Positions 18,658-47,232 of a DNA stretch of 64,000 bases are shown in pieces; position 1 is the stretch's first letter, and each line of letters begins with the position of its first letter. The DNA comes from Thermoplasmata archaeon (GTDB lineage: Archaea; Thermoplasmatota; Thermoplasmata; Halarchaeoplasmatales; Halarchaeoplasmataceae): assembly GCA_003560595.1 (NCBI GenBank), contig PWKY01000033.1, forward strand, positions 1 through 64,000, read 5' to 3'. The translations under genes and the position numbers were made by a program. The notes below the pieces were generated by a model. The model was not told where the DNA came from. It did no database searches and saw only the letters and a list, made by a program, of their open reading frames with translations.

Positions 18658-20802
18658 TTATATATTGGCGGCTATCAACGCCTGACCGACACAGACACCC
18701 ATATCGCCGTTGGGGACCTTTCGGTGAACCAGTAAGTCGTAACCGAGTTCTTTCAATCTGTTTCTTACGTGGTCAACTACAGGGCGATTGTAAGAAACTC
18801 CCCCGGAGATCCCTATGGGGGCGGCGTACTCTTCCGCGGTACGAACGGCGGCTTCCGCCAGGGTGCATGCTACATGATACGTGTAAGAAGCGGCACGATG
18901 GGGGGCGGCTGATTCGTCCAGGAGCATCTTCAAGAAAGCCTCTAGAGTGTAGATCGTATCCCCTTCGAGATAAACGGGATATTCCCTGTTGATATCTCCC
19001 TCTAACTGAAGTTTTTCAAGCTTCATCGCAGGTTCCCCCTCATAGTTCCTTTGGGTGCATACACCCAGAGCGGCTGAAACCGCATCCAGTAACCTACCAA
19101 AGCTGGTTGTTTTAACACTCTTATCCATCAGGTTATCCAATATACTGGCGGTTTTGTCGTCGAAATATGGGCTGTCGTGACCGAGTTTTCTATGGATGGC
19201 GTGGGCTAACCTTTTAGGATATTTTACAGCCTGCTCTCCACCCAGTAGAGGGAACGGTTCCAGATGTGCAGTTCTTACGTATTCCTCAGCGGTACAGTAT
19301 AATACCTCACCGCCCCAGCTTCCTCCGTCCTCTCCATACCCAGTTCCATCCACCGCGATGCACACTATATGCTCCAGATCGTGCTCTAACAAAAGGGAGG
19401 CTCCGTGGGCCCAATGGTGCTGTACTTCGACAACTGGCAGATCTTTCTTTTCTGCGTATTTCAAACCGAGCTTTCTGCTGGTATAGGCGGGATGCAGGTC
19501 CACGGCCACAGCTTCTAGCTCATTGATACCCAGCATGGACTCCAGGTGATCAACCGTGTTCTGGTAGAACACCTTTGCATCGTAAGAACCCAGGTCTCCC
19601 AAGTACTGACTTGGGTATAGATGAGCGTTCGTTGAAAAGGCCAGGCAGCCGCTTTGGTCCGCCCCGGCGGCGAAAACGGTGGAGTCGTAGAAAGGTAACG
19701 TTTCAGGCACGTAACCTCTTGATCTCCTTATGGGACAGATCTTGTCACCGTGAACTCTGATGAGGGAATCGTCTATACGGTTTGCTATCTTCCTATCGTG
19801 CAGAAGATAGCAGTCTAGATCGAGTGAAAATGCATCTCTATCCTTTATTATCATGGGCTCGCCGGGTAGGTTGGCACTGGTCATCACCAGTGCATCCACG
19901 GATATCCCGTCGAACAATATATGATGTAGGGGTGTGTAGGGAAGCATTATACCCACGGTGGGTAACCCAGGTGCCACTTCTTCTAGAGGCTCTTTTTTCT
20001 CGTAGATCATTATCGGACGCCTCGGACCGGTGAATACGTCCTCCCTGGTCACATGGGCGTACTTCCTTGCAGTTTCTAGATCTTCAACCATTATAGCGAA
20101 GGGTTTCTGTGCACGGCCGTACCTTCTGCGGAGTTCGGGTATCTTATCTAGTGTGCTGACTATGTGCATACCGCCCCAGCTCTTTGCGACGCCCACCGAG
20201 CCTTCCTCTATCATAGATATGAATTCCCCAACCCCGCCTATCTTCTTCTTGTTATCATCGTAAAGAGTGTACTTCGGACCGCAGTCCGGGCAGGAAAGTG
20301 TTTGGGCGTGAAAGCGCCGGTCCATGGGTTCGCCGTACTCCTCCCTGCACGAGGTGCACATCTCGAAGGGCGCCATAGTGGTTTTCTCCCGGTCGTAGGG
20401 TAATCCTTGGATAGCCGAGTAGCGGGCTCCGCAATCCGTGCAGTTGATAAATGGATAGTTAAAACGTCTGTCGTCGGGATCCTTGAGCTCGGATATACAA
20501 AAGCGGCATGTGGCCGTGTCCACTGGGATCGAAGACGATCGACTACCATCTGTGCTGGGAATTATGGTGAAATCATCGTACTTTCCACCGCTCTCAAATA
20601 CCTCCACTGAGGTGAGTTCGGCTAAAGGAGGCAGCCGCCTTTCGAGCTCATCCATGAACTCGTCCACATCCCCGTCGATGACGACCTCCACCTCACTCCC
20701 CATGTTCTTTACATAGCCCTTCATACCTAGGCTCTTAGCCACTCGATACACGGTGGGACGGAAGCCGACTCCCTGCACTATACCTTTCAGTACGATACGC
20801 AT
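18658..20802 (-). CDS. hypF: carbamoyltransferase HypF
   Basis: Acylphosphatase GIVQGVGFRPTVYRVA; CRFC...CTDC / CTSC...CPDC zinc fingers; YrdC-like and Kae1-like domains (QHHWAHGASLLLEH, AVDGTGYGEDG). Confidence 0.96.
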   Translation of the reverse strand: MRIVLKGIVQGVGFRPTVYRVAKSLGMKGYVKNMGSEVEVVIDGDVDEFMDELERRLPPLAELTSVEVFESGGKYDDFTIIPSTDGSRSSSIPVDTATCRFCISELKDPDDRRFNYPFINCTDCGARYSAIQGLPYDREKTTMAPFEMCTSCREEYGEPMDRRFHAQTLSCPDCGPKYTLYDDNKKKIGGVGEFISMIEEGSVGVAKSWGGMHIVSTLDKIPELRRRYGRAQKPFAIMVEDLETARKYAHVTREDVFTGPRRPIMIYEKKEPLEEVAPGLPTVGIMLPYTPLHHILFDGISVDALVMTSANLPGEPMIIKDRDAFSLDLDCYLLHDRKIANRIDDSLIRVHGDKICPIRRSRGYVPETLPFYDSTVFAAGADQSGCLAFSTNAHLYPSQYLGDLGSYDAKVFYQNTVDHLESMLGINELEAVAVDLHPAYTSRKLGLKYAEKKDLPVVEVQHHWAHGASLLLEHDLEHIVCIAVDGTGYGEDGGSWGGEVLYCTAEEYVRTAHLEPFPLLGGEQAVKYPKRLAHAIHRKLGHDSPYFDDKTASILDNLMDKSVKTTSFGRLLDAVSAALGVCTQRNYEGEPAMKLEKLQLEGDINREYPVYLEGDTIYTLEAFLKMLLDESAAPHRAASYTYHVACTLAEAAVRTAEEYAAPIGISGGVSYNRPVVDHVRNRLKELGYDLLVHRKVPNGDMGVCVGQALIAANI

Positions 20803-20839: not shown

Positions 20840-21223
20840 TCACATCAGATTGATCATATATGGTTTAAGGAAACGAACGAATAACGTCAATATGCTGGAA
20901 AGTAGAAGCAGCGTGACGAAGGCCACATAATCCGGTGTAAATAACAGAGCTATCACGGTACCTCCGGCGGGTGGATGCTCGATGGCTAGAACCACCATGG
21001 CAAAGATTGAGAGTCCCACCGCGAGGCTAAGCATCACGGAATTGGGTGCGAACCCGCTGTTGAACATGGAGAAAGCTATGCCGATCAAACCACACACAAA
21101 ATTGCCGCTAATAAGACAGCGTCGTCGATAAACGGTACAATTAGGTATAAAAATAAAGCAGCAAGAGCGCTTGGAGAAATAGTACTTTAAAGTTTTCTTT
21201 TCGAATATATGTACCATGTGCAT
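20840..21223 (-). pseudogene. HPP-family membrane protein remnant, copy A (C-terminal half in frame, N-terminal TM in a shifted frame)
   Basis: VGLSIFAMVVLAIEHPPAGGTVIALLF is HPP-like; N-terminal TM (SALAALFLYLIVPFIDDAVLLAAI) is readable only in another frame; ~80 bp shorter than copy B. Confidence 0.75.
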
Positions 21224-21232
21224 CTCGGACAG
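21018..21232. repeat. direct repeat copy A flanking ClC-USP cassette
   Basis: accgcgaggctaagcatcac...gtaccatgtgcatctcggacag also found at 24197-24491. Confidence 0.85.
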
Positions 21233-21308
21233 TGTATTTATAAACCATTTAATGTAAAGCTAAGTCGCAGAAAAAATATATATACAATTACACCCTAAAA
21301 CCTCCGGA

Positions 21309-23231
21309 ATGACGCCCCCTTCAGAAGAGCCAAATCTAAAAATGATATCTTGCCCTAACTTAGATTGTAAGGACTTTAGAAAGAGCGGGATGGGAAACAT
21401 ATCATTTGTCAGCGAGAAAGAAACGACAGGGGGGATTACACGGGAGTTCAAATGTCATACCTGCGGCGAGACTTTTGATAAGTGTATCGATTTAGAGAGA
21501 GATTTTAAAGGCAAAATGAAAGTAGTTCTCGAATCGTTTAAATCTCCAGATTTAGCAAGATTATCCATATTAGGAGTTCTAATAGGCCTTATTGGAGGAT
21601 TAGGGGCGTTTCTCTTCCACTATCTCATTTTAGCATTCAAATACATTTTCTTTGGCGCTACAGATACAGGTACATTTTTAGATACCGTTCTCGCTCTTCC
21701 GTGGTATCAACGTCTTTTGATACCTGCTTTGGGTGGATTGATTATAGGACCGATAATAACTTATTTTGTAAGAGAAGCACGAGGACACGGAGTACCCGAG
21801 GTCATGGAAGGTGTCGCATTAAGAGGAGGTAAGATAAGGGCAAGGGTGGCTCCGTTGAAAGCTTTGATGTCCGCAATATGTATAGGTTCAGGTGGTTCGG
21901 CTGGTCGTGAAGGGCCTATCGTACAGATCGGTGCATCCTTCGGTTCATCTTTGGGTCAGTTTCTGGATCTGGAGCCAGATCGTATAAAAACTTTACTTGC
22001 TGCTGGAGCTGCAGCTGGGATAGCCGGTACTTTTAACGCACCCCTAGCAGGGGTAGTATTCAGCATGGAAGTTATTCTCAGAGACATTAAAAAAGAAAGC
22101 TTTGCACCAATAGTTATCGCCGCAGTTGTAGGTACTAGCTTTGCTAATCTTCTATTTGGAGGAAGAGGTCCCATATTTTATATACCATCAATTAATATAG
22201 GGCCATGGGATGTTTTATTTTTGATCGGTATTGGCTTCGCTGCCGCTGGAGTAGGGTTGTTGTTTTCAAATTCACTATATAAGGTTGAGCATTTATTCGA
22301 AAAGATCCCTTTTCCAGAAGCTATACGGCCCGCTCTCGGTGGTTTGATGCTCGGTGCTCTTGCCTTATCCATACCTCAGGTCCAAGCCACAGGTTATCCC
22401 GTTATGACCGCTGCGCTTTGGAATGAGCTTCCTTTTTATCTGGTTTTGATATTGATGTTCGGTAAGATCTTATCTACCTGCCTCTCGTTGGGTAGCGGCG
22501 GGTCAGGAGGTATATTTGCACCTTCATTGTTTATTGGGTCCATGATGGGCAGTACGTATGGAAAGGTAGTCGACTTTATCGCACCTAATCTAACGGCTGG
22601 ACCGAGTACTTATGCAGTTGTAGGGATGGCGGCTGTGTTTGCCGCCGCAAGTCATGCACCACTTACCGCTATCGTGATCTTATTCGAGATGACAGGAGAT
22701 CCGGGTGTGATAATCCTACTTATGTTCCCATGTATAATCTGTACAGTAATAGCCTCACATGTACAGCACAGAAATATCTATACCACGAAACTGTTGAACA
22801 GAGGTATAGATATAGAAGCCGCTGAAGAAAAGCAAAAATTAAGAAGCATACCTGTGAAAAATGTAATGGATACCGACCTAATGAGATTGGTTATCTATAA
22901 AAAAGACACTTTTAAACACGCAAATAAGAAGTTCACTAAAACACATCATACACAATTGCCAGTTTTGGATAACGATACCGGTGAGTTTATGGGCATGATA
23001 AATTACTTCGATGTGTTAAATCGAAGAGAAGAACTCGATAGATTGGTTGACTTCATTTCACCCCCTATGGCTACGGTGACCGAAGATGATGATCTTTATC
23101 ATGCCTTTGAGTTACTCGGTAACATCGAAGTTGAGTTTATTCCTGTTGTTGATAAAGAAAACCCCGATAAATTGGTAGGCGGCATAAGTCGTAGAGATAT
23201 ACTAGAAGAATATTACTGGATAACTGAGTGA
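21309..23231 (+). CDS. ClC-family chloride channel/transporter with C-terminal CBS pair and N-terminal Cys4 zinc-ribbon-like extension
   Basis: GSGGSAGREGPIVQIGA, LGSGGSGGIFAPSLFIG, CBS region; N-terminus CPNLDC...CHTCG. Confidence 0.94.
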   Translation: MTPPSEEPNLKMISCPNLDCKDFRKSGMGNISFVSEKETTGGITREFKCHTCGETFDKCIDLERDFKGKMKVVLESFKSPDLARLSILGVLIGLIGGLGAFLFHYLILAFKYIFFGATDTGTFLDTVLALPWYQRLLIPALGGLIIGPIITYFVREARGHGVPEVMEGVALRGGKIRARVAPLKALMSAICIGSGGSAGREGPIVQIGASFGSSLGQFLDLEPDRIKTLLAAGAAAGIAGTFNAPLAGVVFSMEVILRDIKKESFAPIVIAAVVGTSFANLLFGGRGPIFYIPSINIGPWDVLFLIGIGFAAAGVGLLFSNSLYKVEHLFEKIPFPEAIRPALGGLMLGALALSIPQVQATGYPVMTAALWNELPFYLVLILMFGKILSTCLSLGSGGSGGIFAPSLFIGSMMGSTYGKVVDFIAPNLTAGPSTYAVVGMAAVFAAASHAPLTAIVILFEMTGDPGVIILLMFPCIICTVIASHVQHRNIYTTKLLNRGIDIEAAEEKQKLRSIPVKNVMDTDLMRLVIYKKDTFKHANKKFTKTHHTQLPVLDNDTGEFMGMINYFDVLNRREELDRLVDFISPPMATVTEDDDLYHAFELLGNIEVEFIPVVDKENPDKLVGGISRRDILEEYYWITE

Positions 23232-23313
23232 GTTAAATATGAGATTGATTTCAAATTCGATGGGAAATGGATTTATACGTTATTCGAGCTTGAGTTCAAA
23301 GAGATGATAGAAT

Positions 23314-24177
23314 ATGTTTGAAAGAGCTTTGGTAGCCATGGACATGTCTCCAGCTACCGATAAGATGACAAGCTGTATAGCCGAGTTTCAAGAGATCGGT
23401 AGAGAGGAGATCATACTCTGCAACGTCATAAATATAGATCCATCAGGTTCATATTCCGGCGAGTTGAAAAGAAAACACTTGATAGAGAAGCAAAAGGTAG
23501 CTTCAAAACTGACCAACAAACAAAAGGAATTACAAAGATGGAGTAACTCGGTTATCTACGAAGTAACTATAGGTGTACCTCATAGAGAAATCGCAAAGAT
23601 AGCAAAGAGAAAGAATGTGGATCTTATCGTTATCGGTTCCAGAGGTAAAAGTAAAATCAAAGGCATCTTCCTGGGAAGCACGGTTACCGAATTGATACGT
23701 ATAACAGACATACCAACACTTATAGAAAAGATCGAGATCAAAGATACGATGGATAGAGATAGTTATATGCTGGCTTGTGATCGTAAATTCAAGTCGATAT
23801 TGTTGGCTACAGACTTTTCGATGAACGCAAAACAAGCTGAAAAAATGGCTATGAAGTTGGCGGAGGAAGCGGAGAAAATGATCTTGGTTTCCGTATCTGA
23901 AAAAGATGATCCAACCACATCTGCCGAGAATAAAAAAAGGCTAGAATCCATGAAAGATAAGTTCCAAAACGTATGCGGTAACGTAACCGTCAGAGTGGCG
24001 GAAGGAACCGCATCACAAAAAATCAATAAAATTGCCAACGAAGAAGGAGCCACATTGGTTGTTCTTGGGAAGAAGGGAAGGGGTGGTATCAAACAGATAT
24101 TATTAGGTAGTACTGCGGAAAATGTAGCAAGACGGTCTAAAAAGCCTATCTTATTGGTACCTCCGACAGAAGGATAA
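23314..24177 (+). CDS. tandem universal stress protein (UspA) domain protein
   Basis: Two Usp domains: IVIGSRGKSKIKGIFLGSTVTELI and VVLGKKGRGGIKQILLGSTAENVARRSKKPILLV. Confidence 0.92.
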   Translation: MFERALVAMDMSPATDKMTSCIAEFQEIGREEIILCNVINIDPSGSYSGELKRKHLIEKQKVASKLTNKQKELQRWSNSVIYEVTIGVPHREIAKIAKRKNVDLIVIGSRGKSKIKGIFLGSTVTELIRITDIPTLIEKIEIKDTMDRDSYMLACDRKFKSILLATDFSMNAKQAEKMAMKLAEEAEKMILVSVSEKDDPTTSAENKKRLESMKDKFQNVCGNVTVRVAEGTASQKINKIANEEGATLVVLGKKGRGGIKQILLGSTAENVARRSKKPILLVPPTEG

Positions 24178-24196
24178 CAGATAGCAAAGATGTAGT

Positions 24197-24491
24197 ACCG
24201 CGAGGCTAAGCATCACTGAATTTGGTGCGTACCCGCTGTTGAACATCGAGAAAGCAATGCAGATCAAGCCACATACAAAATTACTGCCCAAAACATTCCT
24301 AGGGCGAGAAGTGGTAGTGTTTTAGGCATGGCGAATAAACCAATGTGTTGGATCTTATAATATGCTAATTAAACAGCGTTTTCGATAAACGGTACACTCA
24401 GGCACAGAAATAAAACTTAGGTGCAATAGTGCTTTAGGGTTTTTTTATCTAGCTTCTTATCGAATATCTGTACCATGTGCATCTCGGACAG
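24197..24491 (-). pseudogene. HPP-family remnant, copy B (direct repeat of 21018-21232, N-terminal part only, frameshifted, stop codons)
   Basis: Reverse-strand translation gives IGLFAMPKTLPLLA / RPRNVLGSNFVCGLICIAFSMFNSGYAPNSVMLSLAV in two different frames; no C-terminal half. Confidence 0.78.
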
Positions 24492-24569
24492 CAGAGTTAC
24501 ATAATAAAATTTTTTGTGAACCAACAAAGGAGGTAAAAGATTTATATTATAGTTATTGATGGGTTCATC

Positions 24570-26451: not shown

Positions 26452-29355
26452 TCAAATCAACTTCTTACATTTCTCAGCCCATGTTTTCATACCAAGGCTC
26501 TCAAATAGGAAGAGAGCTTTTTTCAAATGTTCAGCGGACTCCTTGGTAAGACCGATCTTTTCTAGTAAAATGGCATACTCATAATGATATCTTGCAAGTT
26601 CATATTTATTATCTACTTCTTTGAGTATCTCACCAGACAGCTGGAACTGCTTTATAGCATCATCCCATTCCTTAGCCTCTCGGTAAACCTGACCTAGGAT
26701 GCATCGGCTTAGTCCTTCTTGGGATTTTGCACCGATTTCAGAGGATATAGCAACTGCCTTTTTAGCATATTCCAGGGCAGTTTGAACTTGATTTATCTTC
26801 ACTTCGGCCAGTTTACAGTAGTTATAGATCAATACTCTCTTTTCACCTATTTGTAAGCATATATCTAGGCTGCGTTGGTAGAGTTCCAAGGCCTTATCAA
26901 CATCGCCTCGGAGGTAATGCATCTCCCCAATACCTAGTAGAGACATTGCAGTGCCGTGGATATCTCCAATCTTTCGATGCAGTTCAAAACTCTGTTCGTA
27001 CAGCTCTAAAGCTCTGTCTACATCCCCCATAGTAGAGTACAAACCACCCATGTTGAGGATAGAGAACGAAATGCCCTGCTTATCTCCTATACTCTCTCTT
27101 ATCTCATGACTCCTTTCATAGAATTCGAGTGCCTTGTCAAGCTCACCGGTACTCATGTATAAGATTCCAATATTACCAAGAGCAGCAGCTATTCCGAATT
27201 TATCATCTACGTTTTTCATCACCGATAAGCTTCTTTTGTAGTTCTCGAGTGCTTCTGTAAATTGTCCTTGACTCAAGTAAGTGTTCCCTATTGCTCGAAG
27301 AGCATTACCCACGTCCTTTTGGTCTGCTATATTTTTATGGAAGAGTATTTTTGCCTTCTCGAATATTTGCATAGCCTCGGTATAATTTCCCATACGGGTG
27401 TGTGCAGTTCCCTCTGCAAATAAGTGACGAGCATATTCAGTGTTCTTCTTATCTGTGATGTGTTTTTTTGCCTGAGCTAGTACTTCGAGAGATTCATCAT
27501 ATTCACCCTTTTTCACATGGACCTCTGCAACCTTCCTAAGCATCTTTGCTTTTATTTCATCATCTACAGCGGAATTGGAGGCTTTGGTGAAGTGCCGTAT
27601 CGCTTTATCATACTCTCCTATCAAAGAAAGTACGTCACCCATATCCTCAAGTATGCTGACCTTCTGTTCGGATCCGGCAAACTCCAGAGCCATTCCATAG
27701 AAAGTGACGGCCTCTTCGTTGGCATAAGCATCCTTGGCTTTGTTAGCTGCTTTCAGTAGATATTTAAAAGCCCTAACGTCCTCGCCTTCGTGATAGTGAT
27801 AGGCCAATTCGTTTACAACCTGATCTAAACTGCCTTTGTATAGTTCAAGGATGGTATCGCCGACCATACGGTGATACTCTATCCTTAGATCTTCGAGCAT
27901 ACCATTATAGAGCACATCCTTTATCTTAGCGTGATCAAATCGATATCTATCTTTTTGCGAATGGATCAATTTATGGGTCTTCTCGATATCACTCAAGTTT
28001 CTTAATAATTTCAAACGACCGATCGCCATTATAATACCGATAACTTCCGACCTGAACTCTTCTCCCTGGATACTGGCGCATTCAAGCATCTCCAATTGAT
28101 CATCCCTTAACCTATCGAGACGACGTTTGATAACATCATAAACTCTAGAGGGGAGGTCAATATTCTTTATATCGATGGAAAGTTCCCACCTACCGTTTTC
28201 TTGCTGTCGTATGCAGGACTCCTCAACTAAAAGTTTGATCACCTCTAGAACGAAAAATGGATTACCTTCTGTTTCCTTGTAGATCATTTCTGTGAAATTT
28301 TTCTCAAATTCATCTCCATCAAAAACGGTTTGGAGCAATTCTTCGATCTGTTCATTGTCCAAACGTTCGAGCTTGATCTTATCAAATAGACTCTCTCGAT
28401 TCATGTTCTGCATCGTTTTCTTTAGCTGATGTGTTCGTTCAGACTGGGTTTCCAAAATATCTTCTGGTCGATAGGTTCCGATGATCAATATTCTGTTATC
28501 TCGTGTGTTTCTTGCCAAATAATGGAGCAGGTTCAATGTTGTTTTGTCTGCCCAATGGAGATCATCGATGAATATTATCACCGGATCACCTTGAGATTCC
28601 CGCTGTATCCCCATCAATACATTGTCAAAAAGATTTTCTTGTTTGAGTTTAGGATCATCCACTAAGAATTTTCCGGAGTATTTGTCTGATTTTATCAGCC
28701 AAGATATCTTATTTTTGATATCGGCGATGTTATCCTCAGATCCATCCCAATCATCCAACCTGCTGCCGATCTCTTCTAATATTCTTCGCATATCTTGAAT
28801 TAGAAACTCACTCTGTGTTCCTTTGATCACACATGCTAATGAAGCACTGCTTTGCTTCTGCAAGAGTATGATATGATCACCATATCCGATGGAGTTCAAT
28901 CCCTGGCCTTCTCTGTTCATCAAAGATAGAGAATCTTTAACAAAATTACCAACCGCGTTGAGCATGGATGCGAATATATCATCATCGAGTTCCGTTTTAT
29001 TCCGTTCGGCCTTTGCCGCCACCATACCGCTTACATCTATCAGGTATGCAGATATCACTTGAGGAGGGGGTTTTCCCGCTATAAGGTGATGTAAATCCGA
29101 GTTTCTGAGTCCCTCACGTATGGGCATCAATGGCTCTAAGCTTCCAGCCATACATCGGCCCGTTATTATTTTTACACCCCTTTTTTTAGCCAACTCTAAA
29201 AAATCAGAAACGAGCCTTGTTTTTCCTAAGCCTGCTTCACCGGAGACAAATACTGTGCTGCCCTTGCCTTCTAAAGCTTTATCTAGATGAGCTTGCAGTA
29301 TAGACTCTTCTTCTGATCTGCCCACAATCCCGGGCTTTTCAAACGAAAGCTCCAT
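26452..29355 (-). CDS. STAND-like AAA ATPase with inserted domain and C-terminal TPR repeats
   Basis: Walker A SGEAGLGKTRLV, Walker B IIFIDDLHWAD, MalT/adenylyl-cyclase-associated-like ATPase, multiple TPRs. Confidence 0.9.
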   Translation of the reverse strand: MELSFEKPGIVGRSEEESILQAHLDKALEGKGSTVFVSGEAGLGKTRLVSDFLELAKKRGVKIITGRCMAGSLEPLMPIREGLRNSDLHHLIAGKPPPQVISAYLIDVSGMVAAKAERNKTELDDDIFASMLNAVGNFVKDSLSLMNREGQGLNSIGYGDHIILLQKQSSASLACVIKGTQSEFLIQDMRRILEEIGSRLDDWDGSEDNIADIKNKISWLIKSDKYSGKFLVDDPKLKQENLFDNVLMGIQRESQGDPVIIFIDDLHWADKTTLNLLHYLARNTRDNRILIIGTYRPEDILETQSERTHQLKKTMQNMNRESLFDKIKLERLDNEQIEELLQTVFDGDEFEKNFTEMIYKETEGNPFFVLEVIKLLVEESCIRQQENGRWELSIDIKNIDLPSRVYDVIKRRLDRLRDDQLEMLECASIQGEEFRSEVIGIIMAIGRLKLLRNLSDIEKTHKLIHSQKDRYRFDHAKIKDVLYNGMLEDLRIEYHRMVGDTILELYKGSLDQVVNELAYHYHEGEDVRAFKYLLKAANKAKDAYANEEAVTFYGMALEFAGSEQKVSILEDMGDVLSLIGEYDKAIRHFTKASNSAVDDEIKAKMLRKVAEVHVKKGEYDESLEVLAQAKKHITDKKNTEYARHLFAEGTAHTRMGNYTEAMQIFEKAKILFHKNIADQKDVGNALRAIGNTYLSQGQFTEALENYKRSLSVMKNVDDKFGIAAALGNIGILYMSTGELDKALEFYERSHEIRESIGDKQGISFSILNMGGLYSTMGDVDRALELYEQSFELHRKIGDIHGTAMSLLGIGEMHYLRGDVDKALELYQRSLDICLQIGEKRVLIYNYCKLAEVKINQVQTALEYAKKAVAISSEIGAKSQEGLSRCILGQVYREAKEWDDAIKQFQLSGEILKEVDNKYELARYHYEYAILLEKIGLTKESAEHLKKALFLFESLGMKTWAEKCKKLI

Positions 29356-29674: not shown

Positions 29675-29770
29675 ATATCCTGGTCTGTAATTTGTTAAAG
29701 ACCTTCACACATCGTAGATAATAGACAGAAAACATTAATTAATACCGGTAACTGCAATTAGTAGATAACT

Positions 29771-47058: not shown

Positions 47059-47232
47059 CCATGGTGGACTCGTTTTAGGATTTTTCCATCAACTTACGGA
47101 TGATACACATTTTTATATGTTTACCGAAGACCGAAGGATACGACCAAATACTTATCCGACCATCCTATTTATAATGGAAGACATAACTCATGACCAATTC
47201 GTTATGTCCTTAACTATAACAGTTGAATTGAT

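Follow-up and report, generated by a model that had tools for sequence, protein, structure and literature searches.

Non-orthologous gene displacement is the process in which one gene type takes the place of an unrelated one. Insertion with long target duplication is known mainly for bacterial restriction-modification genes (PMC1643837, PMC3154945, PMC3031569), and the long duplication, which is variable in length, goes back to Nobusato et al. (2000), as cited in PMC1643837 and PMC3031569. Small variable segments between core genes have been described among strains of bacterial species, where approximately 10% of them are flanked by direct repeats (PMC2884548). For the HPP family of membrane proteins, nitrite transport is attributed to the members from cyanobacteria and plastids (Maeda et al., 2014, as cited in PMC4137279).

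The locus considered here belongs to an archaeal MAG of 1.89 Mb (92.7% complete, 100 contigs); within its contig C33, a stretch of 64 kb, hereafter the window, was analyzed. The order of genes from left to right is DUF389, hypF, HPP remnant A, ClC, uspA, HPP remnant B, nadA, and phosphatase. The features of the locus are as follows:

18658..20802, minus strand: hypF, the left flanking gene
20840..21223, minus strand: open reading frame of HPP copy A, 127 aa, with the C-terminal 86 codons in the native frame and a scrambled N-terminal part
21018..21232, minus strand: left target copy (A), ancestral length ~311 bp, from 6 bp 5′ of the HPP start to approximately codon 101
21233..24196, plus strand: inserted cassette, 2,964 bp, not in contig C39 of a close relative
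21309..23231, plus strand: gene of a ClC-type anion channel/transporter, 640 aa, with a CBS pair at the C-terminus
21351..21485, plus strand: N-terminal cysteine cluster of ClC (C15, C20, C49, C52, C59), zinc-ribbon-like
23314..24177, plus strand: uspA, with two Usp domains
24197..24491, minus strand: right target copy (B), a 5′ fragment of HPP with frameshifts and stops, adjoining the native upstream region
24492..24569: native hpp-nadA intergenic region, ~95–96% identical to C39
24570..25478, plus strand: nadA, the right flanking gene

Copies A and B are homologous, have the same orientation, and share both edges, which are sharp, with 86% identity over 199 ungapped columns. Their local alignment score of 119.8 is far above the scores of 1000 shuffles (mean 11.8, SD 2.0, maximum 20.6). 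The homology, orientation, and common edges agree with a preliminary description of this DNA. The pair constitutes the only direct repeat of at least 45 bp in the window, and neither a third copy nor a MITE-like family was found in the genome. The preliminary description also read both copies as HPP on the minus strand, in agreement with the match of copy A to the TM_HPP profile (PF04982; 45.2 bits, cut-off 27.2), which covers profile positions 53–143 only; the intact HPP on C39 matches positions 17–146 (71 bits). The 76–78 bp beyond the shared right edge are at background level, as judged from unrelated upstream regions and shuffles. Derivation of the ClC promoter from the nadA promoter was considered and rejected, since similarity past this edge did not exceed that of the controls.

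An intact HPP locus free of ClC-UspA, which the preliminary description proposed to seek in related genomes, is present on contig C39 (L054), where an intact HPP gene of 160 aa lies between hypF and nadA. Relative to C39, the window contains the 2,964-bp insertion at the 5′ end of HPP and a target duplication of ~311 bp; the duplicated target is one continuous 311-bp segment in C39, and the outer flanks of A and B both match C39 in order. When two HPP genes were added to the tree as outgroups, A grouped with B to the exclusion of C39 with a support of 99/100, and 10 sites are shared derived between the two copies vs. 2 at which the outgroup matches A/B. As A and B are sister copies, the duplication is younger than the split from C39. 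This contig was binned with a genome of the same genus, G002, whose bin has 6% contamination and contains, on contig C87 (L161), another RadA that is more distant. The other matching contigs of the bin are mostly 67–80% identical to the window, as compared with 86% for C39. Either C39 or C87 is probably a contaminant of the bin, and C39 may come from an organism other than G002; it is still DNA of a close relative and is treated here as such.

The two flanks of the locus demonstrate different affinities. The 5′ part of hypF (approximately 19966–20802) is 93–96% identical to G008 (L056), a member of another genus, and 73–89% identical to C39, whereas radA near hypF is only ~73% identical to G008. 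In the comparison of the window with C39, dS ranges between 0.35 and 1.6 for 17 genes on the left, while nadA has the lowest value of those compared (0.186), followed by 0.330 for the next gene; nadA is ~31% divergent from an outgroup, like other genes, and is thus not intrinsically slow. Since the 5′ end of hypF is close to G008 and nadA is close to C39, a recent exchange with a different partner is probable on each side. The presumed inter-genus recombination tract with G008 ends at the hypF start codon, and a second presumed tract, shared with C39 (24492–26295), starts at the right edge of copy B or close to it. Further along the window, a minus-strand gene of 967 aa (26452–29355), in which an ATPase and TPR-like repeats were recognized by eye, lies between phosphatase and the next operon; C39 ends with a match to 29717–29754 directly after phosphatase, so that the 967-aa gene may represent a further insertion in this region. 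Two short segments (233–284 and 47170–47210) match contigs of several relatives at 80–95% and are possibly dispersed repeats.

The interval between A and B holds ClC and UspA only, exactly as first described. The ClC gene matches Voltage_CLC (PF00654; 322.7 bits), contains CBS domains, and has the motifs GHGVP, GREGP, MEV, and IYTT. In common with H+/Cl− exchangers of the ClcA type (PDB 1kpl and others), it belongs to the same family and has the gating glutamate in GREGP (residue 199) and the pore tyrosine. It differs from them in having GHGVP instead of GSGIP, CBS domains, an N-terminal cysteine cluster, and valine (FSMEV) at the proton-glutamate position (E203 of ClcA); the second intracellular proton glutamate, the mark of the CLC H+/Cl− antiporter subclass, is missing. 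Given this valine, and by analogy with known CLC channels, the protein is more likely to be uncoupled than to be an H+ antiporter. In the tree, it is the sister of all other ClCs of the family (54–59% identity); its GC3 (0.363) is the lowest among the window genes, and its codon usage is farther from the window mean than that of genes of equal length. The collection of public species yielded only one ClC relative, a distant one in Dethiosulfatarculus (41%). The cysteine cluster had no convincing relatives in 60 genomes, and its single-sequence structure model is of low confidence (mean pLDDT 57.9). In UspA, both domains keep the nucleotide-binding motif G-2x-G-9x-G(S), and the nearest relatives, at ~50%, are located in the vicinity of transporter genes, for phosphate in G011 and of the sulfate-type symporter kind in G005.

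The window contains no Rfam matches, and no fluoride riboswitch was found upstream of ClC. An assignment to fluoride resistance (CLC-F system) was rejected on the grounds of the missing riboswitch and of the fluoride operon of E. cloacae, in which uspA is paired with crcB rather than with ClC. The transposase, integrase, and terminal inverted repeats that characterize composite transposons and integrase islands are absent: the ORFs and Pfam matches listed for the locus include no integrase, transposase, or IS, and the cassette has no terminal inverted repeats. No sequence could be recognized as the donor of the cassette, and a viral origin was rejected after scans of viral contigs gave no relative.

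We consider it highly probable that ClC-UspA was inserted into the 5′ end of hpp with duplication of the target, after which both copies decayed and HPP was replaced by ClC. The preliminary description offered tandem duplication and insertion with a duplicated edge as two possible origins of the cassette; the second is favored by the unoccupied site with intact HPP and by the sister relationship of A and B, whereas the first needs an additional event. Comparison with the empty site shows that the module entered an hpp gene already in place, at its 5′ end, and that a target of ~311 bp was duplicated, giving rise to the direct repeats A and B. The most likely mechanisms would be double-strand-break repair or template switching, as in insertion with long target duplication, or else the integration, by one crossover, of a circle carrying the 5′ segment of hpp. 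As judged from the anatomy, copy A held the complete HPP frame upon insertion but was separated from the native upstream region, which stayed with the 5′ fragment that formed copy B. With ClC present, hpp may have become dispensable, which would account for the observed decay of both copies. In functional terms, a ClC-type anion channel would have taken the place of a small HPP-family membrane protein, and Usp likely serves as nucleotide-binding partner or regulator.

The circle route, taken as a full explanation, is a Campbell-type integration, in which a circle with ClC-UspA and an hpp 5′ segment entered by one crossover, the repeats are the shared homology, and the cassette could leave and re-enter by homologous recombination. 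The layout of left flank, A, cassette, B, and right flank is the one expected from a single crossover; a similar route was proposed in a study of flanking repeats in Arabidopsis (PMC2869330), and the flanking hypF and nadA show signs of recent homologous exchange. However, as C39 falls outside the sister pair of A and B, the donor must already have held the cassette together with hpp 5′ DNA of the same lineage, and no such donor was seen, with nothing in the scans of viral contigs. We therefore regard this integration as possible but rather unlikely.

The state of the two copies bears on the loss of the resident gene. Relative to the intact HPP of the relative, copy B has an 18-bp deletion, +1, −1, and +2 indels, and stops in place of codons 29 and 45 of HPP, and it ends at approximately codon 101, confirming its initial characterization as frameshifted, interrupted by stops, and devoid of the C-terminal part. 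Copy A, described at the outset as keeping the C-terminal part with a damaged N-terminal part, has 86 native-frame codons and four deletions in its 5′ half (12, 2, 6, and 76 bp; net −96), as well as three predicted hydrophobic segments that are retained. The decay of both copies, as originally claimed, is evident from the indels in both and the stops in B; it does not extend to copy A being plainly dead, since its frame is restored and open from ATG to the native stop (127 aa). Its C-terminal 86 codons have a dN of 0.042 and a dS of 0.67 relative to C39, a constraint that may be mostly older than the duplication.

It is conceivable that copy A is a working, shortened HPP protein coexisting with ClC, as its net deletion is a multiple of three and its family score exceeds the curated cut-off. 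Yet the first hydrophobic segments are out of frame or deleted, the changes specific to copy A in the N-terminal part mostly alter amino acids, the native upstream region now adjoins B, and restoration of the frame by chance has a likelihood of 1 in 3; the frame may have been restored by chance or by selection. A working protein is thus improbable, and in view of the loss or frame displacement of the first hydrophobic segments copy A is probably non-functional. The rest of the genome yielded no intact HPP.

Two copies in the same orientation would likewise result if hpp had first been duplicated in tandem and ClC-UspA had then entered between them. This course is very improbable, as B starts abruptly at approximately codon 101 whereas the end of A lies 6 bp 5′ of the start codon, exactly complementary ends of one 311-bp segment, and two events are needed where one is enough. 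An assembly artefact joining two strains, suggested by a MAG in 100 contigs, is hardly credible for a contig of 79,947 bases in which A is separated from B by a divergence of 14% and by indels, above the level of strain variants or assembly errors, and both outer flanks follow the order of C39.

The replacement of HPP by ClC, to return to insertion with target duplication, was compared with the distribution of both genes in 16 genomes of the family, this one and 15 others, the latter being related and in many cases incomplete. Intact HPP and intact ClC occur together in none of the 16. Seven genomes have HPP only (G002, on C39, and G009, G010, G011, G012, G013, and G015), seven have intact ClC (G001, G003, G006, G007, G008, and G014, plus this one), and two have neither (G004 and G005); only this genome carries both, with HPP decayed. 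If kinship is ignored, the other 15 genomes would show no overlap at all with a probability of 0.0056. In a RadA tree of 12 of these genomes, at least four changes of state occurred, within the genera g1, g4, and g5. The independent-pairs test gave opposite states in all four pairs (p = 0.125), four being too few for significance. A class-wide exclusion was rejected, as the two genes co-occur outside the family in G033, G037, G046, and G054.

The positions of the genes are likewise shared. In genus g4 (L121/L133/L129/L131), ClC (G014 and G006) and HPP (G010 and G015) occupy the same slot, and between G014 and G010 nucleotide homology resumes 13–26 bp after the stop codon of ClC or HPP. In genus g5 (L119/L128), ClC (G007) and HPP (G011) both directly precede aIF-1A. 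The slot lies before the aIF-1A region in both genera, and its content is swapped in place between species of one genus. In G008, G003, and G001, a ClC of the other subclade adjoins hypF, where C39 has HPP; the ClCs of G003, G007, and G008 are 83–90% identical to each other, above the level of their flanking genes. As the HPP slot of G010 also adjoins the phosphatase operon found here after nadA, and that of G015 adjoins one gene of this operon, the slots of the different genera probably represent one ancestral slot. The exclusion in 16 genomes and the shared slot in other genera support the replacement of one putative anion transporter by another put forward in the preliminary description, and the pattern shows what appears to be the same exchange repeated in the family. 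A broader proposal, which we hold tentatively and at somewhat less than an even chance, is that HPP and ClC are functional equivalents swapping repeatedly in one slot, via recombination in the conserved flanking genes or insertion with long target duplication, and that HPP would be an anion channel or transporter doing the job of ClC.

The locus thus seems to capture a single instance of a swap between HPP and a ClC-type gene that has recurred in the family. As a half-finished gene replacement with a known empty site, it allows the order and mechanism of events to be read. The exclusion predicts a functional overlap, which turns the role of archaeal HPP into a simple question of complementation. 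The transport functions of HPP and ClC, as well as the loss of HPP activity, are putative and deduced from sequence.

With respect to known systems, the archaeal HPP belongs to the same Pfam family (PF04982) as the nitrite transporters, its own transport role being putative; no HPP homologs were found among solved structures. Small variable segments of bacterial strains resemble this locus in their short differences of gene content between conserved genes, whereas here two particular transporter families alternate across genera. The closest likeness is to insertion with long target duplication: the insert is missing from a related genome with an unoccupied site, the long direct repeats derive from one continuous target segment, the duplication far exceeds the IS type, and there are no IS ends or terminal inverted repeats. 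Restriction-modification cargo, which is frequent but not strictly defining for such insertions, gives way here to ClC and Usp in an archaeal genome, and the insertion hit the very gene that its cargo seems to replace, which extends this kind of insertion to transporter cargo and to archaea. As compared with non-orthologous gene displacement in general, the exchange took place in situ and at least four times, with one event preserved half-finished.
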